Shown here: positions 4,338-62,588 of the stretch, one piece after another
Layout: the number at the start of each line of letters is the position of its first letter
How positions within the stretch are numbered: the stretch's first letter is position 1
Assembly: GCA_030267965.1 (NCBI GenBank)
Contig: BRYA01000135.1
Location: forward strand, 34,505-97,092
Direction of reading: 5' to 3'
Length of the DNA: 62,588 nt
Source of the DNA: Triparma columacea
Taxonomy: Eukaryota > Sar > Bolidophyceae > Parmales > Triparmaceae
Program-made: the position numbers and the translations under genes
Notes under the pieces: generated by a model
Databases searched by the model: none
The model's input: the letters and a program-made list of their open reading frames with translations, nothing else
Told to the model about the DNA's origin: nothing

Positions 4338-6380
4338 TCAAATCGAGCCCCCAGGTTTCGCCTCAGTTTTGACCCTGGTGCGTTCCCCCCCACTCCCAAC
4401 GAACCATTCCCCCTCCCCATCGCCCTTCCCCTCCGCCTTCACCGGCGTTCTCATCTTTTCGTCGTCGTCATATTCCCCCTCGTCGTCGTCGTCCTCCTCC
4501 ATCATGCCCATGCCCCCGTAGCTTTGGCTAACGACCCTGGCAACACCACCGGGGGGGGAACCCATTAACCCCATCATACCCTCGAGCTCCTCCCGCCCTG
4601 GGGGACCGTCATCGAGGGCCATTCCGTCCGTCGTAATGACGTCAACCAGGAAATCGAGGACCTCGGTGTTCTTCACGGCGTTCTGTATGTCCTCCCTCTG
4701 CACGGTCCTCCTCTTCTGGCCCTGGCTGTGGCACCAGCTGCTGAGGGTGAGCTCGAGTATGAAGAGCTCGCACGCCTTCGCGAACAGTACCGGCGCCTCC
4801 GCGCTGATCATCCTGACGTCCTCGTCGCTCTTCATGATCCTCTTGATCCTAGCCAGCGGTAGGTCGTTGTGGTTCTTGAACTCCTGCTCCGTCCCGATCT
4901 CCATGTCGTCTATCGCCCTCTCCTGCTTGCTCCAGTACGTCTTCATCTGCTTCTGAATCTCCGCAGCCACCTCCTCCGCCCCCATGACCTGTTCCCCTGC
5001 CCCAAAGAGGCTGTCCCCTATGCCGTCGTCGCCCTTCTTCCCACCCTTGCCCTCCTCCTGACGCTTGGCGTCCTCGTACCTCTTGCTCATCTCGTCGAGC
5101 TGGGTTCCGAAGGTTTTCCACTGGCCCTCCATATTGCCAACCATCTGCCCCTCCAGCTCCTCCCTCTTCCCCCACCCCACGCTAGGCCTGCTGCTCATTA
5201 CCTTGATCATGTGCTCCTTGACCAGCCTCTCGTAGTCCCCCCCCGCCTTGATCTGCGCCTCCCTGAGCTTCTCAAAATTCTCCTTCTCGCTCCCCTCCTT
5301 GAGGCCCTTCAGCCTCGCCTCGTACCTCTCCCCCACCTCCTTCTTCATTCTCTTGATCCTCCCTTTCACCTCCCCCCATTTGTCCCTGATCCTCCCCTCC
5401 TGCCCGCCCCTCTCGATCCGCTTATAACAGAGCGCCTGGCTGAGCTGGTGTACCCTCATGGCCCTCTCCCTCGCCCCTACCCCCTGCGCGGTTCCGTTCA
5501 AATGGATAATCTCATTGGCCTTCACGTGGCTGCTCCTCTCAATCTCCCCCACAGTCTCCTTCGTACCCTCCACCTTCATCATCTCGTTCCTCGTAACCCA
5601 GTCCCCCGCCACCTTGGCCGCCTCTATCATCCCCTCAGCGACGTATCTAACGCTACCGTCGTCCAGGAAAGGGGGCATCCCGCAGGACCTATCAAACTTG
5701 TTCAACGCAGAGTCGGCGCACGACCTTATCAGCCCCATCATCACCGTCACAGCGTGCGAGGCGAACCCAGTGGCCGTCCCGTCGTCCTCCCACTCCTGCT
5801 CCCCTGCCTCGGCTCCGCCGGGGGATGGGGGAACGTTGAGGTTTAGGGGTGACTTATTGCGGCGAGCCCAGACCCCCTTTATGTAACCCACCCCGATCCT
5901 GCTGGCCTTCTCCCTCCTAAATATCTCCTCCGCTAGGTCCGCCGCCTTGGCCGTAACCCAGGGGCAGCAGTTAATGACATACGTGATCTCCTCCCTCTCC
6001 TCCTCCTCCTGCTCCTTACCACCCACGCCGCTGAAGGTGGGGTTGAAGGCGGGGAGCTGCGCCTGGACGACGCCCTTTATCTGCAGGCCTGGACTGTTAC
6101 CAGGCTCCTGCACAGCGAAGTGGGGGGGGGGACGCATGTGACTACAGTAGCCTTTGGTGTGGGATATTAAGGAGGATATTAAGGACTTGGAACGGATGTA
6201 GGGGTCGGAACTAGTTACTGAGGGGGGGAGCGGGGTAGAAACTGTAGGGTACGGGGATTGGAGGGGTAAGAGGGGTTGGCATTTTGGGGGGAGGGGGGAG
6301 GGGGAGGGAAGGGGGAGGAGGTGGATCTTGTTTTTTGTCATAACGTTGTATGAAACAAGATTATATGATACAAATCGCAT
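4338..6380 (-). CDS. NF-YC-like CCAAT-binding factor with a very long N-terminal extension
   Basis: A continuous minus-strand frame of up to 680 residues. The C-terminal part (about 490-610) is a clear NF-YC histone fold: QMKTYWSKQERAID, LPLARIKRIMKSDEDVRMIS, EAPVLFAKACELFILELT and RRTVQREDIQNAV. NF-YC pairs with NF-YB and recruits NF-YA to bind CCAAT boxes in the nucleus. After the fold comes an acidic tail with EEDDDDEGEYDDDE. About 400 residues before the fold form no domain I recognise; they are helical and charged in the middle (RIRDKWGEVKGRIKRMKKEV). The start is uncertain. The stretch before the Met at 6137 is Pro/Ser-rich and may be leader or intron, with acceptor-like sites near 6085-6115. 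The plus-strand frame over 4869-5846 is a shadow of this gene. Confidence 0.8.
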   Translation of the reverse strand: MRFVSYNLVSYNVMTKNKIHLLPLPSPSPLPPKCQPLLPLQSPYPTVSTPLPPSVTSSDPYIRSKSLISSLISHTKGYCSHMRPPPHFAVQEPGNSPGLQIKGVVQAQLPAFNPTFSGVGGKEQEEEEREEITYVINCCPWVTAKAADLAEEIFRREKASRIGVGYIKGVWARRNKSPLNLNVPPSPGGAEAGEQEWEDDGTATGFASHAVTVMMGLIRSCADSALNKFDRSCGMPPFLDDGSVRYVAEGMIEAAKVAGDWVTRNEMMKVEGTKETVGEIERSSHVKANEIIHLNGTAQGVGARERAMRVHQLSQALCYKRIERGGQEGRIRDKWGEVKGRIKRMKKEVGERYEARLKGLKEGSEKENFEKLREAQIKAGGDYERLVKEHMIKVMSSRPSVGWGKREELEGQMVGNMEGQWKTFGTQLDEMSKRYEDAKRQEEGKGGKKGDDGIGDSLFGAGEQVMGAEEVAAEIQKQMKTYWSKQERAIDDMEIGTEQEFKNHNDLPLARIKRIMKSDEDVRMISAEAPVLFAKACELFILELTLSSWCHSQGQKRRTVQREDIQNAVKNTEVLDFLVDVITTDGMALDDGPPGREELEGMMGLMGSPPGGVARVVSQSYGGMGMMEEDDDDEGEYDDDEKMRTPVKAEGKGDGEGEWFVGSGGERTRVKTEAKPGGSI

Positions 6381-13674: not shown

Positions 13675-16600
13675 TCAAAAGTTGTGCGAGATATTGTCAA
13701 AGATGTTCACATACTGCCTGGTGGGGCTGACTGCCCCGTTTCCCCTCATCCTCTTGGTCGGCGACTCGGTCCTCTTGACCTTTCTCCCCCTGTGCCCGCC
13801 GGCGCTGTTGCCCTTTCCTGCCTTCTTATTATTTGTGGCTGGTTTCGTGGGCTTCCTTGGGAGGCTTGGTAGGTTGTCAAGGTAGGCGCCGTCTATGGTG
13901 AGCTCGACGGCCTTGGGCCTCTCTACGATGGGTGGTTCTTCCTTTCTATTCTTGATTCTAGATTTCACTACTCCCGTTAGGCCCAAGCTCAGTCCGAAGC
14001 TGCCGGTGCTTCCAGCACTTCCTGCCCGGCTGTGGCTGTTGCTCCCCTTGCTGCTTTCCATCCCAAGGGCTTGGGGACGGAGTTCCCAGCCGACCTTCAT
14101 GAGTTCGCTCATTTGCATGCCAGAGTTCACCCTGGCGTTATAGGCGACAGGGTCAACCACGACCGCGTTCTCCTTGGTTCCGTTGCCTCCGTTCATGCGC
14201 TGGTTGATCGAGGCAAGAAGGTCCCAATCGGAATCATCAAGGGAGAGCGACTTGGCGCTGTTGGTGAGGCTCATTCTCTCAATGGAGAGGTCTGCGATGC
14301 TGTTATTAACGCTGAGCCTGCTGATTGAACCTAGGCTGTCCCTGGTTGAGGGCCTTGACCTCTTGTTGTTCCTGCCCGTGCCTTCGATTCTCTGGGTGTT
14401 GCCCTCATCCTCGGTCGCATATGGCACGGCGACACCAGGCCAGACTCTCCCGTCTTTGTTGCCAGACGGTGAGGTGGTCGAAGGCGGCTGTGGATTTTGG
14501 GTTTGGGGGATCGTTACGGTGAGGGCAGGCTTGGTCCCGGCTGCTGAGGCTGCAATGGCTGCTTCAATCGCTGCGTCTCCGAACACCGTCCATTGCTTGT
14601 TGATGGGCTTCGTGGGGCAGTTGTTCACCATGCTGTTCGCCCATTCCTCATCAGCAATCTCCTTCACTGACTTGATGCTCGCCTTCCTATTGTTGCCGAG
14701 CCTTCCTTTGATTTCGGGTGTCTTGGTAGCGGCATTCACCCCACCCCCACCCTCTTCCCCGTCTGCCCCTTTTCCGCCAACATTGGACTTCTTGACGGTC
14801 TTACTAAAGTCTCCGCCGCCGAGATCCCCGAGGCTCATGTCGCTATGGTCTAGAGGCGTGTTGGGTATGGAGAACGACATGAGGTCGCTCCCCAAGGATT
14901 CAATACTCCCTAAAGCAAGGCCTCCTCCACGCTCGATGGCGGGCGCATCGACGTTTGGGACGCGAGGTGAGGTTGCAGCGGAGTGAGGCTTGTTGATGGC
15001 CTCGAGGGAGGTCTCATTCATGGAGAGGGAGTTGAAGCTGATGCCGAGGACAGAGGTGTCGATGGTGTTGTTGGCTGTGGGATCAGGGTTGAAATTCAAC
15101 GAATTAGATGCAAGACTGAGCTCCCCGTGTGATTGGAGCAGCTCATCCTCGTCTAGGTTGGGGTGTTCCATGCGGAACTTTGCGAATGCGGCGTTGGCAG
15201 AGGACTGGGAGGAGTTGATGACACTATCCTCGATTACGTATTCCTCGCTGTACATGTCTTCCTCCTCAGAATCCGGCGTCTCAGGACTCTTGATCTTTCT
15301 GCGGCTCTTCCTGGTCCTGTTGCTAGACCTGGAGGATGGCTTGGAGGTGGAGGTTGCGTTGTCGTTTAATGTCTTCAAGTCTCGTTGAGAGAGGATAATG
15401 TTCGAGAAGAGCTTTTCGCGCTCAACTTCGACGTCGAGGACCTTCTTAGTCATCATCATGGCGTTCATTTCTACTTCCTCCTTTTCCACGCTGTCCTCTA
15501 GCTTGTCAACATCAATGTCGAGTTTGAGGTCGAAGGCGGGGGCCGCGGCGGCTTCGCCGCTCGAGCTATTGGTCGAATCATGAGACTCCCTGAGCGGTGT
15601 AACAGAGGGAAGGTCCCTACCTATCGTGGAGAAGATACTGTGCACAAGTTCCTCAGGTTGCGCCAGCACCTCCCTGGTGGCTTCTTCGCCTACTGAGGTG
15701 ATCTTTGACCCCGACTTTGTTCGGGTGCGGCATGCAGCGCTTGGGCGGCTCCCGGGGCGGCTACTCTTCTTCTTTGGGGGGGACGGCTGCTGGTGGTGCT
15801 GGCTGGATGTCGAAACGTTGGATCCACTAGAGTCAGAGGATGACGTTGAAGAGGAGGACGCAGACTTGCTCAGGACTTTTGGGGGGCTTCGAATCTGGGC
15901 GGTTGTCATTTGGGGGGTTGCAGTACTCAATGTGGGGTGGGGGTTGATTGAGGGTAGTGCTTGTTGCTGAGGTTGCTGAGGTTGCTGCGATTGCTGTTGC
16001 TGTTGCTGAGGTTGCTGTTGCTGTTGTTGCTGAGGTTGCTGTTGCTGTTGTTGCTGTTGCTGTTGCTGTTGCTGTTGCGCTTGCGGTTGATGTTGCTCTC
16101 CGTACTCCTTCTTCTTGGTAGACACCAACCTGCCCACGGCCTTGCTCGAGCGGTTCGCCTTTTTACTGAGGATGCTATTGAAACGATTCTTGACGGAGTT
16201 TTCACTCCTTCCAGGCAAGAGCTTGGCAATCTCACTCCACTTGTTGCCAACGGTCTGCTGCTGCTGGATCAACAGGGCGTCCTCCGCAGGAGACCATTCG
16301 GCCTTACTCACCGACGTATCAAGGTGGTTAAGCCAGCGCTCACGGCACTGCTTCCCGGCGCGTCCGGGGAAGTGAGACGCCGAGAGCGACCACTTCTTCG
16401 CCCCGAATATGGACACCAATTTGCGGAGCAGGTTGTCCTCGTCGGAGGTCCAGGGGCCCTTGATTTGGTTCCTTCCGATCTCGGACCAGCGGTCCCGAAG
16501 GTGGATGGGCGAAAAGCCAGACAGGGCTTCATAGGAACCACAAATGCTGGCCCAGGACTTGCTGCCCAACTTCAGCACGGCCTCCCTGAGCTTGTCATCG

Positions 16601-17021
16601 TCCTCCTTGCACCAGGGCCTGGGGAGGGCCGGGCGCTCGCACGCGGAGAGATCAGGGTACATGGAGCAAAGATCGTCATCGCCGGTCACAAAGAAGTTGG
16701 GGACATCAGCAGAGGACGAGGAGGAGGTGGGCCGGCGGGCGGCCGAGGTTACGCCAGCGGGAACGTGGGGCTTCAGTTGAGACGAGAATATGCCAAGGTC
16801 GCTGAGAGAGGGGGAGGATCGGGGGTGAGAAAGGGAGGGAGGGAGGGAAGATGTAGCACCCAAAGAACACTCCGGAAAAAATGGAAGATGCAGCACAGGC
16901 CCTCACTCGCAACTACTCACTTCTCTAAGTCACTAACACCACTAGGAATGGGAAGTTCCGAAGCCTCCATCATGCACATGGAATCTTCGCCCAAAATGTC
17001 ACCTCCCCAAACCAACTCCAT
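13675..17021 (-). CDS. Three-repeat MYB (3R-MYB) transcription factor
   Basis: Two exons, 16921-17021 and 13675-16801, joined in phase 2 to give SDLEN-DLGIFSS. The open frame that continues above 16801 is intron (pyrimidine tract ending CTCTCAG). The product is about 1075 residues. Three MYB repeats lie near residues 75-230: RPWCKEDDDKLREAV with RDRWSEIG, KGPWTSDEDNLLRKLV with CRERWLNHLD, and AEWSPAEDALLIQQQ with SVKNRFNSIL. In plants and animals 3R-MYBs regulate cell-cycle genes in the nucleus. A glutamine tract follows, then long Ser/Asn-rich regions and a basic C-terminus (RGRKVKRTES). The acidic first exon is open upstream of the chosen ATG, so another upstream exon is possible. Confidence 0.85.
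15968..16088 (-). repeat. CAG/CAA tract encoding polyglutamine in the 3R-MYB
   Basis: Imperfect CAA/CAG trinucleotides, read on the minus strand, encode a glutamine stretch broken by prolines just after the third MYB repeat. A simple-repeat tract like this can vary in length between individuals. Confidence 0.85.
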
Positions 17022-35351: not shown

Positions 35352-36572
35352 ATGACTTGTTGCTCAATTTCTCAATTTGCTGAAATTTGTGGAGAGAAAA
35401 TTTCCTCAAACCTGTTGCCCCGTTGGCCCATGAACTTTGCGGCACACGTCATAACACTCTATTGTTGCATATTGAATGCAGTATTGAGTCTGACTCCTAG
35501 AGTGGCAGTGTTTGGAGGTTCAGGATTCGTAGGGAGCGAAGTATCCAGGTTACTTGTAGAAGCTGGCGTTGACCTAACAGTAATATCGAGGGCTGGAGGC
35601 CCGAGAGTGAAGCAGCGTTGGACGGATAAATGTAAATATATCGAAGCCGACATGCTCTCCTCCTCCCCCTCTACAATACCACTTGGGGAGATTGATATCG
35701 CTATCGCGTGCGTGGGCCACATGAGACCGAGTCCCAACTGGGATGGATTCTTTGGTCTGCACTACGACCAGCAGCAGCTCGAGCTCGATAACGGTTTGAT
35801 GACGGAGCGCATTGTGGAGGCAGCGAAAAAAGCGAGGGCACAGAGGTTTGTCTTTGTTAGTCTTTGGTCGCTATCGAAGTACGCCTTGTATGGTGCGCTT
35901 GAGGGGTACGTGTTGGGGAAAATCAGGGGCGAGGAGGCGGCCAGAAGGGCATTTCCGAATGCTTCAGTAATTGTGTCGCCTCATTTGATAGTAGGTGGCA
36001 AGCGCTTTGGAAAACTCGGGCGTATACTTCGAGCCTACACGAACAACCCTGGGGCGAAATTCTACAATAAGATGATGCGTGGGATGAAGGAGAAGGTGTC
36101 GGACTTTTGGCCCCAGGACGCAATTTCTGAGATCCAGAACACCCCCCCTTCCGACGTCACAGACGTCGCTAGGGCCGTGGTCGCCGCAGCTCTCAATGTA
36201 ACCTTGATTTTATCTCAAGAGGATGCCTATTCACCAGACGGAGGAGAAGTTTCCCCCCCCCCACCCGATGTGATTGACGGTTTCTTTTCGATAGTGCAGG
36301 CTGCAGAGCAAGCCTCTGACACAACACTCAAGGCAGCCGCCTCTACTATGGGCAGAAATACAAAAAACAACACAACAGCGGCAGTGACACTCCCTGCCTG
36401 CGACCTACCTTCAGACTTCGTTTCCGCCCCAACTTCCCACTACTCACCAAACGACGGAGCTTTATTTGGAGCAAAACCCCTCCTCTTCCCCCTCGCCCCT
36501 GCTCTCTCCGTTTTCGGGTTCTTTGTAGCGTTAATACTTGAATCGTACAAACACGCCCCACCACCAACCTAA
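35352..36572 (+). CDS. Atypical short-chain dehydrogenase / NAD(P)-binding epimerase-like protein
   Basis: A single exon of 406 residues. A Rossmann start, RVAVFGGSGFVGSEVSRLLV, follows a hydrophobic leader. Either the ATG at 35352 or the later one at 35430 (MNFAAHVITLYCCILNAVLS) could be used, and the second gives a cleaner signal peptide. Further features are IDIAIACVGHMRP, RFVFVSLWSLSKYALYG (Ser and YxxxK-like region altered) and SVIVSPHLIVGGKRFGKLGR. Such atypical SDRs include complex I NDUFA9 and plastid RNA-binding CSP41 relatives. A C-terminal hydrophobic helix (LFPLAPALSVFGFFVALIL) could anchor it. The substrate is unknown. Confidence 0.7.
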   Translation: MTCCSISQFAEICGEKISSNLLPRWPMNFAAHVITLYCCILNAVLSLTPRVAVFGGSGFVGSEVSRLLVEAGVDLTVISRAGGPRVKQRWTDKCKYIEADMLSSSPSTIPLGEIDIAIACVGHMRPSPNWDGFFGLHYDQQQLELDNGLMTERIVEAAKKARAQRFVFVSLWSLSKYALYGALEGYVLGKIRGEEAARRAFPNASVIVSPHLIVGGKRFGKLGRILRAYTNNPGAKFYNKMMRGMKEKVSDFWPQDAISEIQNTPPSDVTDVARAVVAAALNVTLILSQEDAYSPDGGEVSPPPPDVIDGFFSIVQAAEQASDTTLKAAASTMGRNTKNNTTAAVTLPACDLPSDFVSAPTSHYSPNDGALFGAKPLLFPLAPALSVFGFFVALILESYKHAPPPT

Positions 36573-36639: not shown

Positions 36640-39095
36640 TTAAGCGATGGCGAATTCCTTGAACTCTTTGACGTCTCCGAGCATCTCATTCGTCCCCTGA
36701 ATGGCTGGTCTGACATATCCCTCCCGTTTCTCCTCCTCAGTGGCGTGATCAAAGACATCGACCTGGATGAGGTGGTCCCTCACGGCCTCGGCCTCGTCCA
36801 GGATGGCCTGCTCATCAACAGTAGCCCCCCTCTTCTCCTTCCTCAGCTGGGCGGAAATCTCGTCGGCCTTACATACGAGGGGAAGGGCGCGGATGAGCTC
36901 GGACACCTGGTGGGACTCACCCTCAGGAGCCATGTAAACGTGCTCAGTGAGCATGTCTCTGAATCCTGAGGGCTTTGTCACAAGCTCGGCGACCCTCTTG
37001 GTCAGGGCATCATCGGGCTTCTTGTAGGGCCTGGTAAGCCCCCCAAGAGGGTAGCAGGCCACCCCCATGACTGCGGAGGCGACACCTCCGAGAGGTCCGG
37101 GGAAGTTATCCTTGGCCTCAGAGAGAGCCTGCTGGGCCTCATACTCGAGCCTTAACATGGCATGCTCGGTGACGGCCTCAAGTCCCTCCATCCCCCTGTT
37201 GTTGTGATAGTAGTGAAGAGTGGAGTAGCCAAGGAAGATGGCTCCCATGGCGTCACTCAGCCTACCCATGAGGAGCTCCTCGAACTTGAGCTTGCCACCC
37301 AGGGTGAAGCAAAGATCAGCGGTGAGGGCAAAGTTGGCGGAGAGGCGGAGGAGCTGGTCCTCGTGGTGCTTGAGAAGGGCGTCGCCGTCCAGGTAGGCAC
37401 CCTTGGAACGGGTTTTGACCTGGGCGGTAGACTTGACGCCGCGCCCTATGGAGAGGGCGAAGTTCTCGAGTCCATGGCCTATGACCTTCTTGAGCTGAGT
37501 TCCGAACTGCAAGAGGGGTGGGGATGGGGTAAAGGAGGTTAGTTAATATTATATATATACCATTTAAGTCCATGTACTCCAACCTTCCTCACCTGGTCCA
37601 CGGCCTCGGGCTTGTCGCTCTGGAGGGCGTAAATGAGCTCGAGCATGTGGGGGTGGCAGCGGGTTAGACCCTGGCCGATGATCTGGAAGGACCTCGTCAT
37701 GATGTTGGCTCCCTCGACGGTGATGGCGATGGGGATGGACATGTAGGCATTTCCAACGAAATTTCGATCTCCGAGGACGATGGCAGATCCGGCGGCGATG
37801 TCCATGCCCTTCTCTATGATGCGGCGACCGCGCTCCGTGCAGTTCTGCTTCATGATGGAGGAGATTACCATGGGGGCTTCGTGATTGTCGACGATAGCGT
37901 TCATGACGTCGCCGCCGGCGATGCAAACAAGTGAGTCAGAGGTACCCTCGGCGAGGGCCTCCTGGATTCCACCGAACTCAGCGATGGGAGTGCGGAACTG
38001 CTTCCTGACCCTGGAGTAAGCTCCAACGGCGGCGGCCATGGTGCGGCCTGCGCCAACCGAGGAGGCCGGGAGAGAGACTCCGCGGCCCTCAGCCAGGCAC
38101 TCGACAAACATGTGCCACCCGTAGCCCGCGCGCTCCTGGCCTCCGAGGATGCTCTCCATGGGCACCCAGACGTCCTCCCCCTCGACGGTTCCGTTCATGA
38201 AGGCGGCGGAGAGGGGCATGTGGCGAGGTCCCATCCTGAGGCCCTCGTGGCCACGCTCGAGCAGAGCGACAGTGAAGCCCTCCTCGCCCTTCCCCTTGAG
38301 AAGGTTGTTGGGGTCCTTTAGGTCGATTCCGATTCCAACGACTCCGGCAACGGGGGCGAGGGTGATGTAGCGCTTCTTGAAGGTGGCACGAACGCCGAGG
38401 ACTCCGTCCCGCTCCTCAACTACCCCATAACTTCCAATGAGGGAGGTCGCGTCCGAGCCGGAGTGGGGGCCGGTGAGTCCAAAGCAGGGGATGAGGGTAC
38501 CGTCCGCAAGCCTGGGGAGAAAGTAATTCTGCTGAGCGTCAGTTCCGTAGCGAACGAGGAGCTCACCAGGGCCGAGGGAGTTTGGGACCGCGACCGTGGC
38601 GTTGGCATCGAAGCAGTGGGTGGCGAGCTTCGCTAGAACCGCAGAGACAGCAGCGGTGGAGAAGCCCTTCCCTCCCCACTCTTTGGGGATCTTCATGGCA
38701 AAGAAACCCTTGGTCCTCATCATGTCCCAAGCCTCTTTGGAGAAGTCCTTCTTCGTCATGACATCATGGTCGTTGAGGACGGCGCACAGCTCATTCACCT
38801 CGTTGTCCATGAACGACTGCTCCTCGGCGCTGAGGCCAGGCTTGTACGTATCAATTAGGTGCTGCAGGGACGGAGAGCCAGTGAAGATATCCCTATCAAA
38901 GCCGATAGTCCCGCAACCTAGAGCTACCTGTTCGGTCTGAGAAATTGGGGGCATGACGGATTTAGAAGCATTGTACATCATCTTGGTCAGGAACGTCCTC
39001 TTCTGAGGCTGGACAAGAACAGACTGTGAAGCTGCGGGGGCATTTTGTGCCAACAGGCGTTTTATCGCGTTGTTTGTTAATCTCTGAGACAGCAT
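36640..39095 (-). CDS. FadE-type acyl-CoA dehydrogenase, likely mitochondrial
   Basis: Two exons, 37593-39095 and 36640-37506, joined in phase 0 (EAVDQ-FGTQLKK), about 789 residues. This is close to bacterial FadE (about 814) and much longer than ordinary mitochondrial acyl-CoA dehydrogenases (about 400). Family parts: GFFAMKIPKEWGGKGFS, PCFGLTGPHSGSDATS (FAD/substrate region), GQERAGYGWHMFVECLAEGR, RKQFRTPIAEFGGIQE and the DUF1974 C-terminal domain (SANFALTADLCFTLGGKLKFEE split over two motifs). It oxidises acyl-CoA to enoyl-CoA in beta-oxidation. The first 45 residues (RLTNNAIKRLLAQNAP, then PQKRTFLTK) form a mitochondrial-type presequence. It converges with the SDR-type gene, 67 bases apart. 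Confidence 0.9.
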
Positions 39096-43798: not shown

Positions 43799-46486
43799 TT
43801 ACGCATTCTCGACACTAAGCGAGCTCTCAAAATCCATACCAACGGACTGCATAATTTCCTTCGACTCCTCCACCTTCGCCACGACAGCTTGATTCGCGAA
43901 CCCTTCCTCAGTCTCGTTGTTGCTGCCTTGGGATCTATGCATCACCAGGAGCTCAAGGGAGGCGGACGAGGAGAAGAGCCCTCCAGCGGAGACCTTTCGC
44001 ATGCCGCTACTTTGGAGAGAGTCCGAACTCTTCTGCTCGTCGATCGACTTTTCAATCTCGTTCACCGAGCTCAGCTGTGACAGTCTCCCTCCTGTAGAAT
44101 TCGCGGGGGAGAGCTTCCCTTTGAGGGGATTCATCGGCGGGGAGAAGTTGACGGGTGAAAATCCCGATGGAGAACTCGCGTGCTCTTGAAGTGTGCCCCC
44201 CGAGCTTCCACTGTCGTGAACAGTGCCGCCCTCCGCAGTTCCAAAAAAGTGAACAGTGCCGCCCTCCGCAGTTCCACTCTTTGCGAACGTCGGGGTCTTA
44301 AGTCCGGCCAGCGCAGAGGGGGAGACGGAGTAGCTGCCGCGAAGCATTTCAATCTTCGCCCTGTTCCTTTCTGTCACACTCAGCGCCTCCGCATTCTTTA
44401 CCGTTACCCCCTTAGTAATCGTTTTCGCCTCAATTCCAACCGTGTCTTCATTGCTCTTCTGCCCTTTGAGCCTGTAGCTCACTGAGACACTTCTTGTGGC
44501 CGGGGAGTCGACGACAGCCTGGAACTCTTCATCGTTAACCTTCATGTTCTCAATCTCCAGTGCCGAGTCTGACTTGTTACGCTTGAAAGTGTCGAGCTTC
44601 TTCAGTCGGTCCTTTCTCTTCTCGTCCTGGAGGGCAACAGCGTCGAGGGGCTGGAGGTGGATGCCCTCATTCTCCTCGCCGAGGTCAGCGACATTACCCA
44701 TGGCAAGGACAAACTCGGCGAAAGAGACCCTGCCGTCACCATCCGTGTCCGCTTCGGCGAGCATTGTTTTTATCCGCTCCTTGTCGTTTAAGTCGGACTC
44801 GCCAAGAAGAGCCTCGAAGTCCTTGGGTTCCAGGTACCCTGAACCATCGTGGTCGAGGATTTTGAAGGCGTCCTTTAGCTCCTTCATGGAAAGGTGGTTC
44901 TTGTGCATTGTTGCAGCTAGGAATTCAAGATACGAGATCTCTCCGTTTCCATCCTGGTCGATATTCTCGAATATTCCCTCAATATCTTCCGGCCTGATCG
45001 TGGGTAGCACCGATGTCATGGCGCGCGCGAACTCATCAGCCGTCAAGGTCCCGCTGTGGTCGGTGTCAATGGTACAGAAGCAGTCCCGCAAGTCCTCCAT
45101 CTCGGTCTGGCTCATGCTGAACGCGACTGCCATCATGGCGTTCTTCTTCAGGTCCGTGAACTTTGACATCTCCCCAATTTGAGGAATCAGGGGCGTCAAG
45201 GTTTCAGAGAAGTGTTCGTTGTCAAGCACCTGGGCAATGAATGGATGGCAAAGCGCCTGCTTGGACGTCATTCTCGTTCTTACATTTATCGTGAGGAGCT
45301 TCGCGACGAAGTCCATGCAGCTGTCGCTCAGGTTCTTACAGTTCCTCGGCCACTCGTAATCCGCCGACATTATGTCGGCGACCATGCTCCGGTACTTGCT
45401 GTTTGCAATGTTGGGAATCTCACGCCCGTTGAAGGGGCGCTGCCCCGAGAGCATGGCGTATGTGGTCACGCCGACCGCCCAGAGGTCGCATTCCTCATTG
45501 TAATTCTCTTTGAAGACCTCTGGAGCAGTGGCATAAGCCGTCCCAACAAAAGCTGTCAGGGGAGGATCAGTACTTGCGTGCCGGGTGGCATACCCGAAGT
45601 CGATTAGTTTAATCTGCGCATCCGCGGCCGGCCGCTCCAACATGACGTTCTGGGTGGGGGGAGTGGAGGAAGAAGAGATGGAAGAAGAATGGTTGGGTTA
45701 GCACACGTAGGAGGAGGGGCCTTGAGTAGAAGTAGGCGATCGCCCTCACCTCCAGTTTGACATCCCTATGCACGATGTCGTTCTCGTGCAGGTAATTGAT
45801 GGCCCTTAGAATTTGCATGCTAAATTGCGCAGCCTGCATCTCGTTCACCCTCCTCCTCGGCTGGTTGTTGAGCACCCTTAGTAGGTTGCCTCCGCTGCAG
45901 AGCTCGACAACCATGTGCAGGTTCTTGTTGTGCTCGTAGGACTGGAACAGACGCAGCACGTTGGGGTGGTCGAGGGAACGAAGAATTTCTATCTCATTTA
46001 GGTAATACTTCCTCTGCTTCTCGTCAGACTTGTTCTTCCTGAAGAATGTCTTGAGAGCAAATCTACGACGAAAGAAAAGAGGGAGAAGGGGGAATAGACA
46101 GATTGTAAGGTGGGGAGATTGGAAGAATACCGCGTCAGGCAAGAGTTTTTGATATATTTCATCAAGTTCTCTTGGAATCAAACTCACCTTAACCCTGTCA
46201 CCTTGTGTTTTATCCTCACAACCTCACTGCTAGCACCCGAACCGAGTATCTTTCTGGCCTCAATTTGGTACATGTTCTTGATCTCCGTACTATAATCCTT
46301 AACCATGTTTCCCTTGAAGCTCCCCCTCCTTCGAGAGCTGGCGAGGCTGTGTTGTGTTGGGTTTTCAGGGGTCCCTGGAGCCTTGTCCGGGGCATTATCT
46401 ACGGACTTCTTCTCAGAACTCCGTACATCGACAGCAGCGTACTTGAGAATGGACGCAGAACCGCCCGAAGAGCACGATTGGCCCAT
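43799..46486 (-). CDS. Calcium-dependent protein kinase (CDPK), N-myristoylated, long C-terminal tail
   Basis: Three exons in reading order 46188-46486, 45750-46062 and 43799-45649, joined in phases 2 and 0, about 820 residues. The start chosen gives MGQSCSSGG, a classic N-myristoylation site with a Cys for palmitoylation. The kinase domain shows ILGSGASSEVVRIK, FALKTFF, IVHRDVKLENVML (catalytic loop split by intron 2), LIDFGYATR and DLWAVGVTTYAML. Four EF-hands follow: DTDHSGTLTADEF, DQDGNGEISYLEF, DHDGSGYLEPKDF and DTDGDGRVSFAEF. CDPKs couple calcium to phosphorylation. After the EF-hands, about 300 extra Ser/Lys-rich residues include an 11-residue tandem repeat (GTAEGGTVH core). This tail is much longer than in plant CDPKs. 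Confidence 0.93.
44216..44275 (-). repeat. 33-bp tandem duplication in the CDPK tail
   Basis: A unit starting GTGAACAGTGCCGCCCTCCG appears twice, 33 bases apart, in frame. It doubles an 11-residue peptide with GTAEGGTVH. Confidence 0.85.
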
Positions 46487-55807: not shown

Positions 55808-56540
55808 TGCGGTGAATAATCAATGAATTTGTTTTGGGAACTTAAATATGTGATGAAATCTTTCAACGTAGGACTGCGGTTTGATTTCCCCCATATTCTC
55901 CGCAGCGTTGGTGTCCCCGTTGGACGCTGGCTGGTTATGGGTGTTGTGAGTTGTGAGTTGGGATGGGTTTATGCTTCGGTGTGGGGAAAGGAGAGTTCGG
56001 GAAAAACACAACTGAAGAGGAGCAGAAAAAACCCAGTATCGAACAGTATTTAAGTCGAGAGACTAAAAGTGTGTAGGGACCTAATTAACTGTAGCCAAAC
56101 AGACAACTATCGGGTTGTGCCTAAGAAGCGCAAACAATTGTAGATACGGGAGCACTCAAACTGTGGGCGTACAACGGCCAAAGTGAAATACAAATCTAAC
56201 ATCGGGAGAGCTATTTTTCTAGACCCTTGAAGGAGTGGGGCTGCAACACTGGTGCTGAGCAGGTAGGTTGTTGGGGAGGATTAGCGGAAGAATGTAGGTG
56301 ATGGAGGGGCGGAGGATGCGCGTAAATGGACAGAAAGTGGCAAGAAAAAGACACTGAGGAGAGAGGCAGCGATGGAACCGGGTGTGTTTGATTCTCAGAA
56401 GGGGCCTAAATGCCGGCTTGAGTGATCGAGGGCAACATCTCTCTCAAAGATGGGACGAGACCGGCAGTATTCTCACTCTCACCAAACGTTCGCATGCCCC
56501 ACAGATTCTAAATCCCGCCGAGAGTTGAGCTTAACAGCAC
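55808..56540. other. Intergenic region, no gene seen
   Basis: 3' flank of the karyopherin-like gene and promoter region of the mini-exon gene. An in-frame TAA at 56532 precedes the next start codon, which supports that start. No coding signal was found. Confidence 0.5.
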
Positions 56541-59500
56541 ATGGACACGGAAAGTGAATCCCGAGGAGGGAGAGAAGAGCGTGTGGAGGAGACTCATACA
56601 CTTCAAGTTGACTCCCCGATGCCCGACAACTGCCATTCAGTACCCGATCTAGGCCATGAGAGGCAAGTTACTCCGTCTTCATCAATTGAAAGAATTCGTG
56701 GGGACGCTGGACAAGGTGAGAGAGTCGTGTCAAGGGGTTAGTGGGGGTGGAAACTCTTGACATTCTACAGGGAAAAATGACGATACGTCGGGTCAAGCGT
56801 GGAAATCTTTTCATTTTGACTAACAACGCCAAAATCGCTATTACCGCAGACTCTGAAAATGGTCATGAGGACTTTGGACGAGGTGAGTTGTGCGTTGAGA
56901 GCCGGAAAAGAAGAATGCATTTTAATACTCTAGGGGAGAGCTGAAGAGTCGCGGGAGGGCGCGTTGAAACTTGTAATTTTTTCTCACTTTTGCAATGTGT
57001 TGTGTTGTCCCCTTCACAGTGTCTAAATCTAAAAGCTCTCATGAGGATGCTGGACGAGACAGAGGTAAGCTCGATTCAGGGAGTCGTATGGGGGGAGACC
57101 CTTGTAGTTTTTCTCACCGCCCTGCGTGCGGAACGCGCGGAGCCGTTCGCGGAGGGCCTGGCCCTCGGCGTCGAGCTCGACCGGCGGCGGCTGTGGCGCA
57201 CGTGCGCGCGCGCCGGTCTGTGGCAACCGCATGGGTTGCGTCTCCGGCGACCGCGTGGGGCGCTTGATATGCTACACAGAAACGAGGAGCACGTTGAAAT
57301 CTCTTCATGTTGACTAACATAACAAACACCATAATCGCCATTACCGCAGACTCTGAAAATTGTCATGAGGATGCCGGACGAGGTGAGTTGTGCGTTGAGA
57401 GCCGGAAGATAGAAAGGAAAATTTAATACTCTAGGAGAGAGTGGGAGAGACACGGGAGGACGCGTTGACACTTTGTAGTTTTCTCACTTTTGTGCAATGT
57501 GTTGTGTTGTCCCCCCTTCAGTCTCTAAATCTAAAAGCTCTCATGAGGACGCTGGACAAGACCGAGGTAAGTTCGATTCAGGGAGTCGTAGGAGGGGAGA
57601 CCCTTGATATTCTACACGGAATCGAGGAGCACACGTTGAAATCTCTTCATGTTGACTAACATAACAAACACCATAATCGCCATTACCGCAGACTCTGAAT
57701 ATGGTCATGAGGATGCTGGACGAGGTGAGTTGTGCGTTGAGAGCCGGAAGAGAGAAAGGATAATTCGATACTCTAGGAGAGAGCAAGAGAGTCGCGGGAG
57801 GACGCGTTGACACTTTGTAGTTTTCTCTCACCGCCTGCGTGCGGAACGCGCGGAGCCGTTCGTGGAGGGCCTGCGGCGACCGCATGGGATCCATCTCCAG
57901 CGACCGCATGGGTTCCGTCTGCTGCGACCGCATGGGGCGCTTCTGCGGCGACCGCATGGGTTCCGTCTGCTGCGACTGCATGGGGCGCTTCTTTGGCAAC
58001 CGCATGGGTTGCGTCTCCGGCGACCGCGTGGGGCGCTTGATATGCTACACAGAAACGAGGAGCACGTGTTGAAATCTCTTCATGTTGATTAACATAACAA
58101 ACACCATAATCGCCATTACCGCAGACTCTGAATATGGTCATGAGGATGCTGGACGAGGTGAGTTGTGCGTTGAGAGCCGGAAGAGAGAAAGGATAATTCG
58201 ATACTCTAGGAGAGAGCAGGAGAGTCGCGGGAGGACGCGTTGACACTTTGTAGTTTTTGCTCACTTTTGCAATGTGTTGTGTCGTCCCCTTCACAGTCTC
58301 TAAATCTAAAAGCTCTCATGAAGACGCTGGACAAGACCGAGGTAAGTTCGATTCAGGGAGTGGCAGGGGGGGAGACCCTTGTAGTTTTTATCACCGCCTG
58401 CGTGCGGAACGTGCGGAGCCGTTCGCGGAGGGCCTGGCCCTCGGCGTCGAGCTCGACGGGCAGCGGCTGCGGCGCACATGTGCGCACGCCGGTCTGCGGC
58501 GACTGCATAGAATCCATGTCCTGCGACCGCATGGGGCGCTTCTGCGGCGACCGCATGGGTTCCGTCTGCGGCGACCGCATGGGGCGCTTCTGCGGCGACC
58601 ACATGGGTTCCGTCTCCGGCGACCACGTGGGGCGCTTGATATGCTACACGGAATCGAGGGGCACGCGTTGAAATCTTTTCATGTTGACTAACATAACAAA
58701 CACCATAATTGCCGATTCCCGCAGATTCCAAAAACGGCCACAAGGACGCGGGACGAGGTGAGTTGTGCGTTGAGAGCCGGAAGAGAGAGAGGACAATAAG
58801 TACTCTAGGAGAGAGCGGGAGAGTCGCGGGAGAGTCGCGGGAGGACGCGTTGAAGCTTTGTAATTTGTTCTCACTTTTGCAAAAAATGTTCCCTTCACAG
58901 TGTCTAAATCTAAAAGCTCTCATGAGGACGCTGGACAAGACCGAGGTAAGTTCGATTAAGGGAGTGGGCAGGGGGGGAGACCTTTGTAGTTTTTATCACC
59001 GCCTGCGTGCGGGCGGAACTCGCGGAGCCGTTCGCGGAGGGCCTGGCCCTCGGCGTCGAGCTCGACGAGCGGTGGCCGCGGCGCACGTGCGCGCGCCGGT
59101 TTGCGGCAACCGCATGGGATCCGTCTCCGGCGACTGCGTGGGTTCTGTCTGCGGCGACCGCATGGGGCGCTTCTGCGGCGACCGCATGGGGCGCTTCTGC
59201 GGCAACCGCATGGGTTCCGTCTCCGGCGAACGCGTGGAGCGCTTGATATGCTACATAGAAACGAGGAACACGCGTTGATATCTCTTCATGTTGACTAACA
59301 AACACCATAGTCGCCATTACCGCAGACTCTAAAAACGGTCACGAGGACGCCGGACAAGGTGAGTTGTGCGTTGAGAGGCGGAAAAGAAGAACACATTTTA
59401 ATACTCTAGGGAAGAGCGGGAGAGTCGCGGGAGGACGCGTCGACAGTTTGTAATATTTCTCACTTTTGCAACAATGGTGTCCCCTTCACAGTCTCTAGAA

Positions 59501-62500
59501 GCTCTCATGAGGATGCTAGACGAGGTGAGTTTACGTATTCGTGTAGACGAAGAGTAGAGTATTTTGATCGTTCGGGGAGGGCTGAGAAGCCATTCTGAGG
59601 AAGTTTCAGATTTTGCATTTTTTTGACCCTTTTCACCCCCAAAACCACCCCCAGAAATTTCTGGCCATCCTCATCTTCAACCTGGATATGAAAATTTCAA
59701 TGCCGAAGTTTCCGACGATCCCTTAAACGGTAGAATAGCCCGCGAGAACAATCTAAGCGCTATACCACCTGCTGTCGGGTGCGCGACTCCAAGCCGCACG
59801 CCAGTCGGCCTTGCGACTGTCAGCCACGCCACTGCCGCTCAGGCCATGACATTAGATCCTGACAACACCATCAGGAATAAATACCCCCCGGAGTCCCTCT
59901 CTAGCTCCGATCACACCTCTTCCACTATGCTAGGACAAGTTGATATCGATTACGCAGCTCTTGGACCCAAGCAAGTCAAACTTGTGAAGCTTCTTGAGGA
60001 GAGAGGAGCCGTTGAAGGCCTCATCGACACTTCCACCGGCCATGATGTGAAAGATTTAGGGCTCGCCGGTTTTTTCCACGACGAGCGCGACAAGATTATT
60101 CACTTTCTCCTCACCGATTGTGAGCAGGGCAAGTTCCGAAGGAAGACCCTCCAGGAGTACGACGAAAAGGAAGGAGTCATTCACAGACTCGTCTACTGGC
60201 AGCACTACAGCAGCGGGAATAAGTTTGTCGAATTTCTCCTCGACGTCAAAGTTGTATCTCCTGACAAATCGACGAACATTATGGAGTTGGCACCCCTTGA
60301 TGAGGATGACCTTTCTGATGAGGCAACTGCAAAGCTTGTCGAGATTCTAGCGTTAACAAATACCAAGGCTGTCAAGCGAGGTGTCATTAAGGGCGAGCTC
60401 AGCTTCACTGATTTTAAGTTTGGACAAACTGCAGTCACCATGGTGGGAACTCTCAAGGCAGAGGAGAGGGTTACAGAGGCGAAATCGAATCTAGACATTG
60501 GCACATTCAAAAGCTTTAAATCTGCTAGGGCAAACGTCGGAAGGATAAACAGCAGCATCAGCAGTGTCAAGAAAGCAAGGTCGAACGTTGGAAGGATAAA
60601 TAGCAGCATCAGCAGTGTCAAGAAAGCAAGGTCAAACATTGGAAGGATAAAAAGCAGCATCAGCAGTGTCAAGAAAGACAATTTCAAGGATGTATTTGTT
60701 TCATGGAAGGGAATTCTAGATGAGTTCAGGAAGAAATTTAGACAGCCTGCAGTCATTGACGAGCGGAGGAAGGCGCACTTTGTGGAAATGGTCATGCCCA
60801 ATGTGCCAACTCTTACTGAGGAGGAGGACAGGATGCTGGAAAGTGTTGCAGGGCTGGAGGAGGAACTCTACAAGAAGGGAAAGAGAGTCAAGGGGACACT
60901 GAAGGAGGGTATTGACAAGTTCCTGTGGAGAGATGGGGACAAGGTGTGGGGAGCCTATGGGGTCATCCTGGACAAGTCAGCGAAGGGTGTGTTGGCAGAG
61001 CAATTTCTGCTTGACACATTTGTGCTGTCAGAGGAGCACTTCAAAAATAATGGGAACTTACCAAGGGTGATCAGAAATGATTTAGAGGGTACTAGAGGTA
61101 TGCACTATCATATTGGCGTGAAGGTCCCTGCCGCCACCAATCGACTATTTGAGAATTGGTATGTGTGGAAGGAAGTCAAACTTGAGAACGGCCGAGCTTC
61201 GTACATGGTGGCTTTTGTGCCACTGACAGAGTACCCTGAAGGAGGCTTCAAGGACCTCAGTAAGGAAGGATTTGTGCTAGCAAAGACTACAGGTGTCTTC
61301 TTCTTCAATGAAATTGCCCCAAATGTCTGTAGAGTAACACGCATTCAGACTGGCGATCTTCAATTCAAAGGCCTTCAAAAGACACTGATGGACAATGCTA
61401 TTCACTACCTTGCAAAGATTCAGCTTATTGAAGCCAACAGTTTGCAGAAGAAGTTCAAGAGGAACGGAAAGGAGGTTGATGCTGAGGTCAGGGGGGCCTT
61501 GGTCAAGAGGATGAAGGAGGGTGTTGAGTTGGAGGAGGACCAGAAGAAGGTGTTTGGGGAGGTGGAGGAGCTCTTTGGTGGGGAGGAGGAAGGAAGAAAA
61601 TCTAAGAGCTTGAAGAGAACGAGCTCGAAGAGTAGGGCAACTTTTAGGGCATCTTTAAAGGGTCGAATGAGTTTTGGGAAGCTCTTTGGTGGGGAGGATG
61701 AAGGAAGGTGGAGGCCTCTTGAGTCACCTTATGAGGGAGTGAAGATGGAGATCAAGTACAAGCAGCAGGAGAAAGGAAAAAAGACACTCGGTTTTGGAAG
61801 AGCCGAGTGTGTAGCCGACTGTTCAGCTGAGGAAGCAGCTGCTTGGTTCTTTGCGTACTGCAGCAGGGAGAGGATGGCAGTGGATAGAGAGGAAGGAAAT
61901 CCTGCAAGGCTGGAGATAATGAAAAGTGGCGAAGGAAGGGTAAATGAGAAGCTGTTTGCAACAGTCAAGAAATTTCCTTTCCCTCTTCATGCTAGAGAGT
62001 TTATAAACAGATATGTGTGGCAAAAGGGACACGAAGAAGGCGCAATGTCTATAGCGTTTGTCCCAGCTGAAGAGCAGGTAGACTATGGGGGAAACCTAGG
62101 AAAGCTTGTGCAGGCAAAAACTAGTGGTATTCTCACTGCCAAGAATATTGAGGACCATAATGGTGTTCTCCAGTGTAAACTTACATTGACCCAGTTTATG
62201 GACACAGGAGGGCACATTCCTGTGGAAGTTGTCAGCAGATTAACCCCGTACGTGCTCAGTGCGATAGCAGAACTCAGGGATTCCTTCCAGCGGGATGAAG
62301 AGGTTGATAAAGCTGCACTGGCCTCTCTTGCCAACATCATCAAGAATGAGCCCCAAGATTACACCGAGGAGGAGAAGCAAGCAATCAGGAAGGGGATGGA
62401 GTTCTATGAGAAGTGCAAGGAGGGGAGGACTTTTGATGATTTGAAGAGTCCTGATGAGAGGGTCAAGATGAAGCTAGTTCACGTTGATGGGGCAAGCAGT

Positions 62501-62588
62501 GGGACTGGTTTTGCCACTACTGTGGTTGATGCGAGTGTGGAGGAGTGTGCAGCACGCGAGTTATTTTTGGATTCAAGAGAATTCCGTA
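56541..62588 (+). CDS. START-like multidomain protein with an array of phase-1 mini-exons (3' end beyond window)
   Basis: Exon 1 is 56541-56715. Mini-exons follow at 56850-56882, 57020-57064, 57350-57382, 57522-57566, 57692-57724, 58125-58157, 58297-58341, 58725-58757, 58901-58945, 59326-59358 and 59492-59524. A long exon runs from 59655 to the window end without a stop. All joins are phase 1 and GT-AG, and the joined frame has no stop. Mini-exons encode 11-residue (e.g. DSENGHEDFGR) or 15-residue units (VSKSKSSHEDAGQDR). The long exon begins with a small helical domain (KQVKLVKLLEERGAVEGLI). A 17-residue repeat follows (core GRINSSISSVKK, three copies), then two and part of a third START-like domain (about 60900-61430, 61750-62240 and 62460 onward; RLFENWYVWKEV and REFINRYVWQKG align). 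START folds bind lipids; the ligand and the role of the repeat peptide are unknown. Confidence 0.7.
57105..57266 (+). repeat. GC-rich insert copy 1 in a beta intron
   Basis: About 162 bases absent from the short beta intron at 57567-57691. It starts TAGTTTTTCTCACCGCC and ends GGGGCGCTTG, with CTTG on both sides of the insert. This copy has the fewest 24-bp units. Confidence 0.75.
57818..58039 (+). repeat. GC-rich insert copy 2, in a chimeric alpha/beta intron
   Basis: About 222 bases. Left of it the intron is alpha type, right of it beta type. It contains a 24-bp minisatellite with units such as CGACCGCATGGGTTCCGTCT. Confidence 0.75.
58382..58638 (+). repeat. GC-rich insert copy 3 in a beta intron
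   Basis: About 257 bases. It has at least five 24-bp units that alternate between a TTCCGTCT and a GCGCTTCT ending, and is flanked by CTTG. Confidence 0.8.
58987..59245 (+). repeat. GC-rich insert copy 4 in a beta intron
   Basis: About 259 bases, similar to copy 3 with a different order of 24-bp units. The flanks are TTTG on the left and CTTG on the right. Confidence 0.8.
60524..60676 (+). repeat. Three in-frame copies of a 51-bp coding repeat
   Basis: Each copy encodes 17 residues with the core GRINSSISSVKK. Copies differ by a few bases. They lie between the N-terminal helical part and the first START-like domain. Confidence 0.9.

Follow-up and report, generated by a model that had tools for sequence, protein, structure and literature searches.

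Triparma columacea is a tiny marine silica alga of the Parmales, the sister group of diatoms. In a 62,588-nucleotide stretch of its genome (positions 34,505 to 97,092 of contig BRYA01000135.1, hereafter the window), we studied a gene that opens with a start exon and eleven mini-exons and continues into a very large exon. The gene belongs to a large family lying on the telomere side of the contigs. We think it probable that the mini-exons, with which this family member begins at its 5' end, form a genuine coding row, and that their units are gained and lost via recombination between introns.

A frame-safe row of mini-exons

Direct assembly of positions 56541-59654 (window coordinates, plus strand throughout) gives a start exon and eleven mini-exons of three types: six A units of 33 nt (DSENGHEDAGR type), four B units of 45 nt (VSKSKSSHEDAGQDR type), and, at the end, a single T unit of 33 nt (VSRSSHEDARR), which is B-like and shortened. 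Their order is ABABAABABAT. The start exon (56541..56715, 175 nt) lies just after an in-frame TAA at 56532-56534, read by eye; it ends in phase 1 with a tail, SSSIERIRGDAGQ, that is similar to the repeat unit, and start-exon tails at six other loci are weakly matched by the mini-exon profiles. There follow an A unit at 56850..56882 (DSENGHEDFGR), a B unit at 57020..57064 (VSKSKSSHEDAGRDR), A at 57350..57382 (DSENCHEDAGR), B at 57522..57566 (VSKSKSSHEDAGQDR), A at 57692..57724 (DSEYGHEDAGR), an identical A at 58125..58157, B at 58297..58341, A at 58725..58757 (DSKNGHKDAGR), B at 58901..58945, A at 59326..59358 (DSKNGHEDAGQ), and T at 59492..59524. The mini-exons total 411 nt. The last exon opens at 59655, contains an ATG at 59846, and is at least 2934 nt long (59655..62588), because it runs off the end of the contig (C134, 97092 bases), which is also the end of the window.

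All 12 introns are GT-AG and in phase 1, all units are multiples of three, and the joined frame is free of stops to the window end. The claims of the sequence-only reading that there are eleven coding mini-exons with GT-AG borders and phase-1 introns, symmetric in frame, are thus borne out by the open frame and the intact splice sites. The strict alternation of 33 and 45 nt that it described holds less well: both lengths are present (seven of 33 nt, four of 45 nt), but two A units are neighbours (57692 and 58125) and the eleventh exon has 33 nt. Likewise, the HEDAG core that it saw in the units is found in most of them but is not invariant, with one HKDAG, one HEDFG, and HEDAR in the last unit. 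Every exon ahead of the final one ends in G, so the junction residue (D, V or E) is set by the downstream exon alone. The frame is kept by any subset of mini-exons, including none: since the start exon ends in phase 1 and the exon at 59655 starts in phase 1, skipping the entire array keeps the frame too, and such skipping was wrongly taken beforehand as a refutation of a coding array. An origin by chance is excluded, since the repeats arose as long duplications of homologous sequence and 20 other contigs bear these exon types as well.

The intron between the two neighbouring A units (57725..58124, 400 nt) lacks the B exon present elsewhere in the pattern, and intron comparison shows that it is recombinant. 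Its first 107 nt match an A-to-B intron (97%), whereas from nucleotide 91 onward it resembles a B-to-A intron (80%), the two matches overlapping by 17 nt at the switch point. Recombination between introns, with the loss or gain of a B exon, would explain this structure, and units could therefore come and go by intron exchange. With phase-1 introns throughout and unit lengths divisible by three, such turnover would be harmless to the frame. The unit orders seen across loci include AAT, AABAABAAT and ABAAABAAT, besides that of the window; several arrays were cut at the end of the stretch taken, and their unit counts are minima. The A-to-A intron also carries a GC-rich minisatellite with a period of 24/48 nt (57871..58038), with similar arrays at 58493-58637 and 59102-59244, and the 24-nt repeat in the long introns may help misalignment.

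Coding signal across the copies

We sampled 35 contigs, i.e., 34 contigs with paralogues and the window's own. The sample is not random: the mini-exon pattern itself led to loci L001-L008 (7 contigs), and protein search to loci L009-L038 (30 contigs, 3 shared). Arrays are present on 21 of the 35 contigs, with 1-11 visible units each and 103 mini-exons in total, and all but a few of these have the lengths seen in the window (33 nt, n=80; 45 nt, n=18; 39 nt, n=5). The acceptors are CAG in 102 cases and TAG in one, the donors are GTRAGY in 103/103, and there is no stop in phase 1. Six profile matches without GT were reported, all of them read by eye as start-exon tails, and they were not counted. 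The first delimitation of the exons tried multiples of three first; when we remeasured each exon from its acceptor up to the nearest GTRAG downstream, favouring no length, all 103 lengths were unchanged.

The ratio of nonsynonymous to synonymous polymorphism (pN/pS) was computed on 61/66 A, 17/19 B, and 14/18 T sequences, after dropping within-locus duplicates and other lengths. In A exons it is 0.32 (bootstrap 0.25-0.41, 61 sequences), compared with 1.20 and 1.17 in the other two frames. We also counted distinct changes that hit a splice dinucleotide, create a stop, or alter the last exon base: there are none, against 11.3 expected (P = 5e-6; 96 of the 103 exons, each change counted once, with the expectation drawn from the intron-derived mutation mix). 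Inter-unit introns range freely in length, from 114 to 481 nt, whereas exon lengths stay fixed. For 96 of the 103 exons, a branch-point-like word lies 15-55 nt upstream (shuffle mean 19.9), in copies that are related and so not independent. In-frame ATGs upstream of A exons (36/67) are not constant. Taken together, this evidence favours real coding exons, without showing when the units are joined.

Several observations weigh against this conclusion. The search for copies starts from intact exons and requires AG and GT near the match, and it thus favours intact copies. The pN/pS of B (0.41) and T (0.46) exons is matched by one equally low control frame (0.41 and 0.39, respectively), so the frame test discriminates for A exons only, and distinct synonymous changes exceed their expectation weakly (22 versus 16.3, P = 0.07). 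Mean diversity is 0.13 and 0.12 in the 20-nt intron flanks and 0.15, 0.11, and 0.26 at the three codon positions of A exons. The flanks being at least as conserved as the exons, exon conservation alone proves nothing; recent duplication and the presence of splice signals would agree with such conserved flanks. No transcript and no database protein was found with a joined array, two of the protein searches scoring the best ~7,990 word-sharing candidates. Finally, the sole annotated relative with units, the T. columacea protein P0002 (TrCOL_g13771), starts inside an intron and contains just the last A and T units.

The latter protein matches the genome at 100% over residues 37-929. Its contig (C161) shows four units, so the gene model misses part of the array, an example of how 5' ends of this kind can escape automatic annotation. 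Protein searches with the joined N-terminus and with the membrane part of the family gave genomic gene models and metagenome proteins, the latter search also MMETSP-derived proteins. In the metagenome protein P0023, intron sequence is followed by no more than the initial residues of an A unit, and the MMETSP-derived relatives P0045, P0048, P0068 and P0074 are without HEDAG units. Among 95 database proteins scanned for the motif, P0002 alone has HEDAG-type units. Within the reach of these data, the array thus looks confined to the T. columacea lineage.

A large family next to the telomeres

With up to 3 mismatches allowed, the genome contains 305 matches to a 28-nt word taken from the large exon (control, 0), and the A and B patterns match 258 and 147 times (reversed-pattern controls, 0). 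Among the 100 word matches listed of the 305, all 50 on the minus strand are no more than 8.5 kb from where the contig starts; 14 of the 50 on the plus strand could be placed, by contig extent or by a same-side telomere, and their distance to the contig end is 1.7-8.9 kb. Taking (TTAGGG)10 as the telomere (100 listed of 186 matches), family genes read toward the same-side telomere in 17 of 17 cases, from 4.7-8.8 kb, and none reads away among the matches listed. The ends of contigs C52, C83, and C62 finish in telomere repeats; those of C263 and C467 do not. The word matches, their placement relative to contig ends and telomeres, and the pattern counts together show that the family is large and telomere-side, with the many copies near telomeres and the common orientation that define subtelomeric multigene families, among the matches listed.

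Arrays are common in this family but not universal. In 14 of the 35 contigs, the stretch of 0.4-1.4 kb covered upstream of the open frame contains no unit. Among annotated relatives, the N-termini of P0001, P0003 and P0004, for example, are array-free at the protein level. The start exon of the paralogue on C52 ends in ADAGVMNDAGKT...PSGPNHMDAGR, similar to the array-free N-terminus of P0001 (ADAGVVNDTGKT...PSGPNHTPSA), and this resemblance suggests that start exons may also be exchanged between members.

The complete paralogue on C52 shows what the contig end cuts off in the window. Its last exon encodes 2450 residues, with two stretches that match the XK-related family (PF09815; E 3e-8, 33.3 bits against a cut-off of 24.8), to which phospholipid scramblases belong. 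XK-related matches also occur in many homologues, and the window copy ends before this part. Homologues of the membrane part were found in T. laevis, T. strigata, and MMETSP-derived proteins, one of them labelled Bolidomonas. The START domain (PF01852) is matched by P0004 (24.1 bits against a cut-off of 22) and, at E <= 0.01, by 5 of 28 open reading frames of paralogues, and it is precomputed for several Parmales homologues. The window's own large exon has no significant Pfam match (COG4_N only, E 0.34, below the cut-off), and no solved relative of it was found. Two structure models, made with the START helix-grip fold in view, are of poor quality (mean predicted local distance difference test scores of 35.6 and 39.0). 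The claim that the repeats are placed ahead of START-like domains therefore stands for the family, to which the large exon belongs, but not as a significant match in this copy; by family membership, the exon would be START-like.

Some contigs have features at both ends. Telomere repeats flank C70 (75.5 kb), C71 (~84.3 kb) and C75 (~67.7 kb) on either side, the sizes of the last two being inferred from telomere matches, and C123, C158, C264, C285 and C470 have an outward-reading family gene at each end. The T. columacea genome may thus be divided into very many chromosomes, each some 60-125 kb long. Among the N50 values tabulated in PMC10328945, those of four other Triparma assemblies (73-83 kb) would be consistent with such chromosomes, and those of T. 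columacea (63.5 kb) and T. retinervis (8.2 kb) need not be.

What the array may do, and related systems

If the mini-exons are coding, the array would add a low-complexity repeat tether, probably cytosolic and disordered, to a large protein with START-like lipid-binding domains and, judging from the complete paralogue, two XK-related membrane stretches; the disorder and the membrane topology are both putative. Recombination between repeated introns at chromosome ends would add or remove units without damage, in line with copies that carry none to eleven. Splicing would join the units mostly constitutively, and the array would function as a length-variable tether or a regulatory tail. Alternative splicing could add variants, but it is not needed; differences between gene copies account for much of the diversity.

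The symmetric exons might instead act as cassettes, with one gene giving many tether variants by combinatorial splicing. The variable splicing proposed by the sequence-only reading is so far unsupported, and we regard the cassette explanation as unlikely. The symmetry is complete, so that all 2048 subsets should keep the frame, every unit has a GTRAGY donor, and schistosome micro-exon genes of like design are reported to be variably spliced (PMC3961193). Yet the same symmetry is equally to be expected if a single phase-1 exon was duplicated time and again together with its introns, variation between genomic copies already provides diversity of arrays, and the joined array was found in no transcript. 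It is similarly doubtful that the two processes combine into a generator of diversity, in which subtelomeric intron exchange would alter how many mini-exons the various START/XK-related genes have and how these are ordered, and cassette splicing would multiply the variants. If true, a free-living alga would produce, from its chromosome ends, many tether variants of a lipid-handling membrane protein.

The array could also be vestigial: an intron-exon segment, once duplicated, would be spreading passively among chromosome ends while contributing little to the protein, with translation starting from the large exon. The contigs that lack a unit upstream of the open frame, the three proteins with array-free annotated N-termini, and intron flanks as conserved as the exons would all suit this explanation. 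We hold it to be quite improbable, since the 103 exons contain no stop and no length off a multiple of three, and the pN/pS of A exons is 0.32 versus 1.2 in the other frames. Lastly, the mini-exons could be by-products of an antisense gene in the GC-rich intron blocks, where antisense frames are open for stretches and up to 22 of 31 copies are free of stops in one frame. Gaps other than multiples of three are common there and the pN/pS values of the three antisense frames (0.78, 0.81 and 1.18) include none that stands out; with constraint in no antisense frame, we rejected this candidate, which would be a most surprising outcome. No coding constraint and no frame preference were found on either strand of the GC-rich intron core adjoining the minisatellites. 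With 40 of 292 candidates scored, the core has 62 matches in the genome, and many of them share a contig with matches to the array patterns. On C179, it lies at 82880-83140 on the minus strand, ~7.5 kb from a B-like exon at 90679-90712 on the plus strand, i.e., on opposite strands, unlike the common orientation.

The nearest design to a coding row of mini-exons with turnover of units is that of the schistosome micro-exon genes (MEG), whose products are secreted and mostly coded by micro-exons. Both have tandem symmetric exons, multiples of three, that can be dropped without a change of frame. They differ in exon size, coding share, and protein type: MEG micro-exons measure 6-36 nt, with reported variable splicing (PMC3961193), whereas the Triparma units are homologous repeats of 33-45 nt, with B (45 nt) outside the MEG range, and the 411 nt of the array make a minor coding share ahead of the very large exon, which belongs to a family of membrane proteins. 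START is among the most enriched domains in Parmales, often in multi-domain proteins (Ban et al., PMC10328945), and the window gene belongs with this START-rich gene set. That enrichment is already known; the START account in the main text of Ban et al. makes no mention of XK-related fusions or mini-exon arrays, and the same text is silent on telomeres, introns, splicing, scramblase, and chromosomes. The family resembles XK-related proteins by the Pfam match in the complete paralogue and many homologues, and differs from them in that the XK-related part sits behind START-like domains and comprises two matching stretches.

Plasmodium var is a subtelomeric variant gene family with surface-exposed products and exclusive or switching expression. 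Like such families, the Triparma genes have many telomere-adjacent copies in a common orientation and units gained or lost between copies; unlike in var, the variable part is a tail of mini-exon repeats. In the open-licence literature we found no report of mini-exon arrays, which agrees with the earlier claim that no such system is described in algae, and none on Parmales telomeres, Triparma alternative splicing, or bolidophyte subtelomeres; papers pairing subtelomeric, XK-related, and START domain include none on Parmales by title and abstract start. If gain and loss of units by intron recombination is confirmed, a free-living, photosynthetic organism would provide an instance of a hypervariable gene family at subtelomeres, its exons being so designed that turnover of units leaves the frame unharmed. 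Chromosome-end recombination, exon symmetry, and protein variation would then be testably linked in the sister group of diatoms.

Within the large exon, a 51-nt in-frame repeat (ARSNVGRINSSISSVKK) occurs in three copies at 60527-60677; P0005 has one copy and P0001 none. Elsewhere in the window, three further long open reading frames have no Pfam match, and the neighbours with matches are a kinase with EF hands (43802-45643), an acyl-CoA dehydrogenase (37542-39095), an epimerase/dehydratase-like protein (35352-36569), a Myb-like protein (13678-16896), and a histone-fold/NF-Y-like protein (4341-6380).

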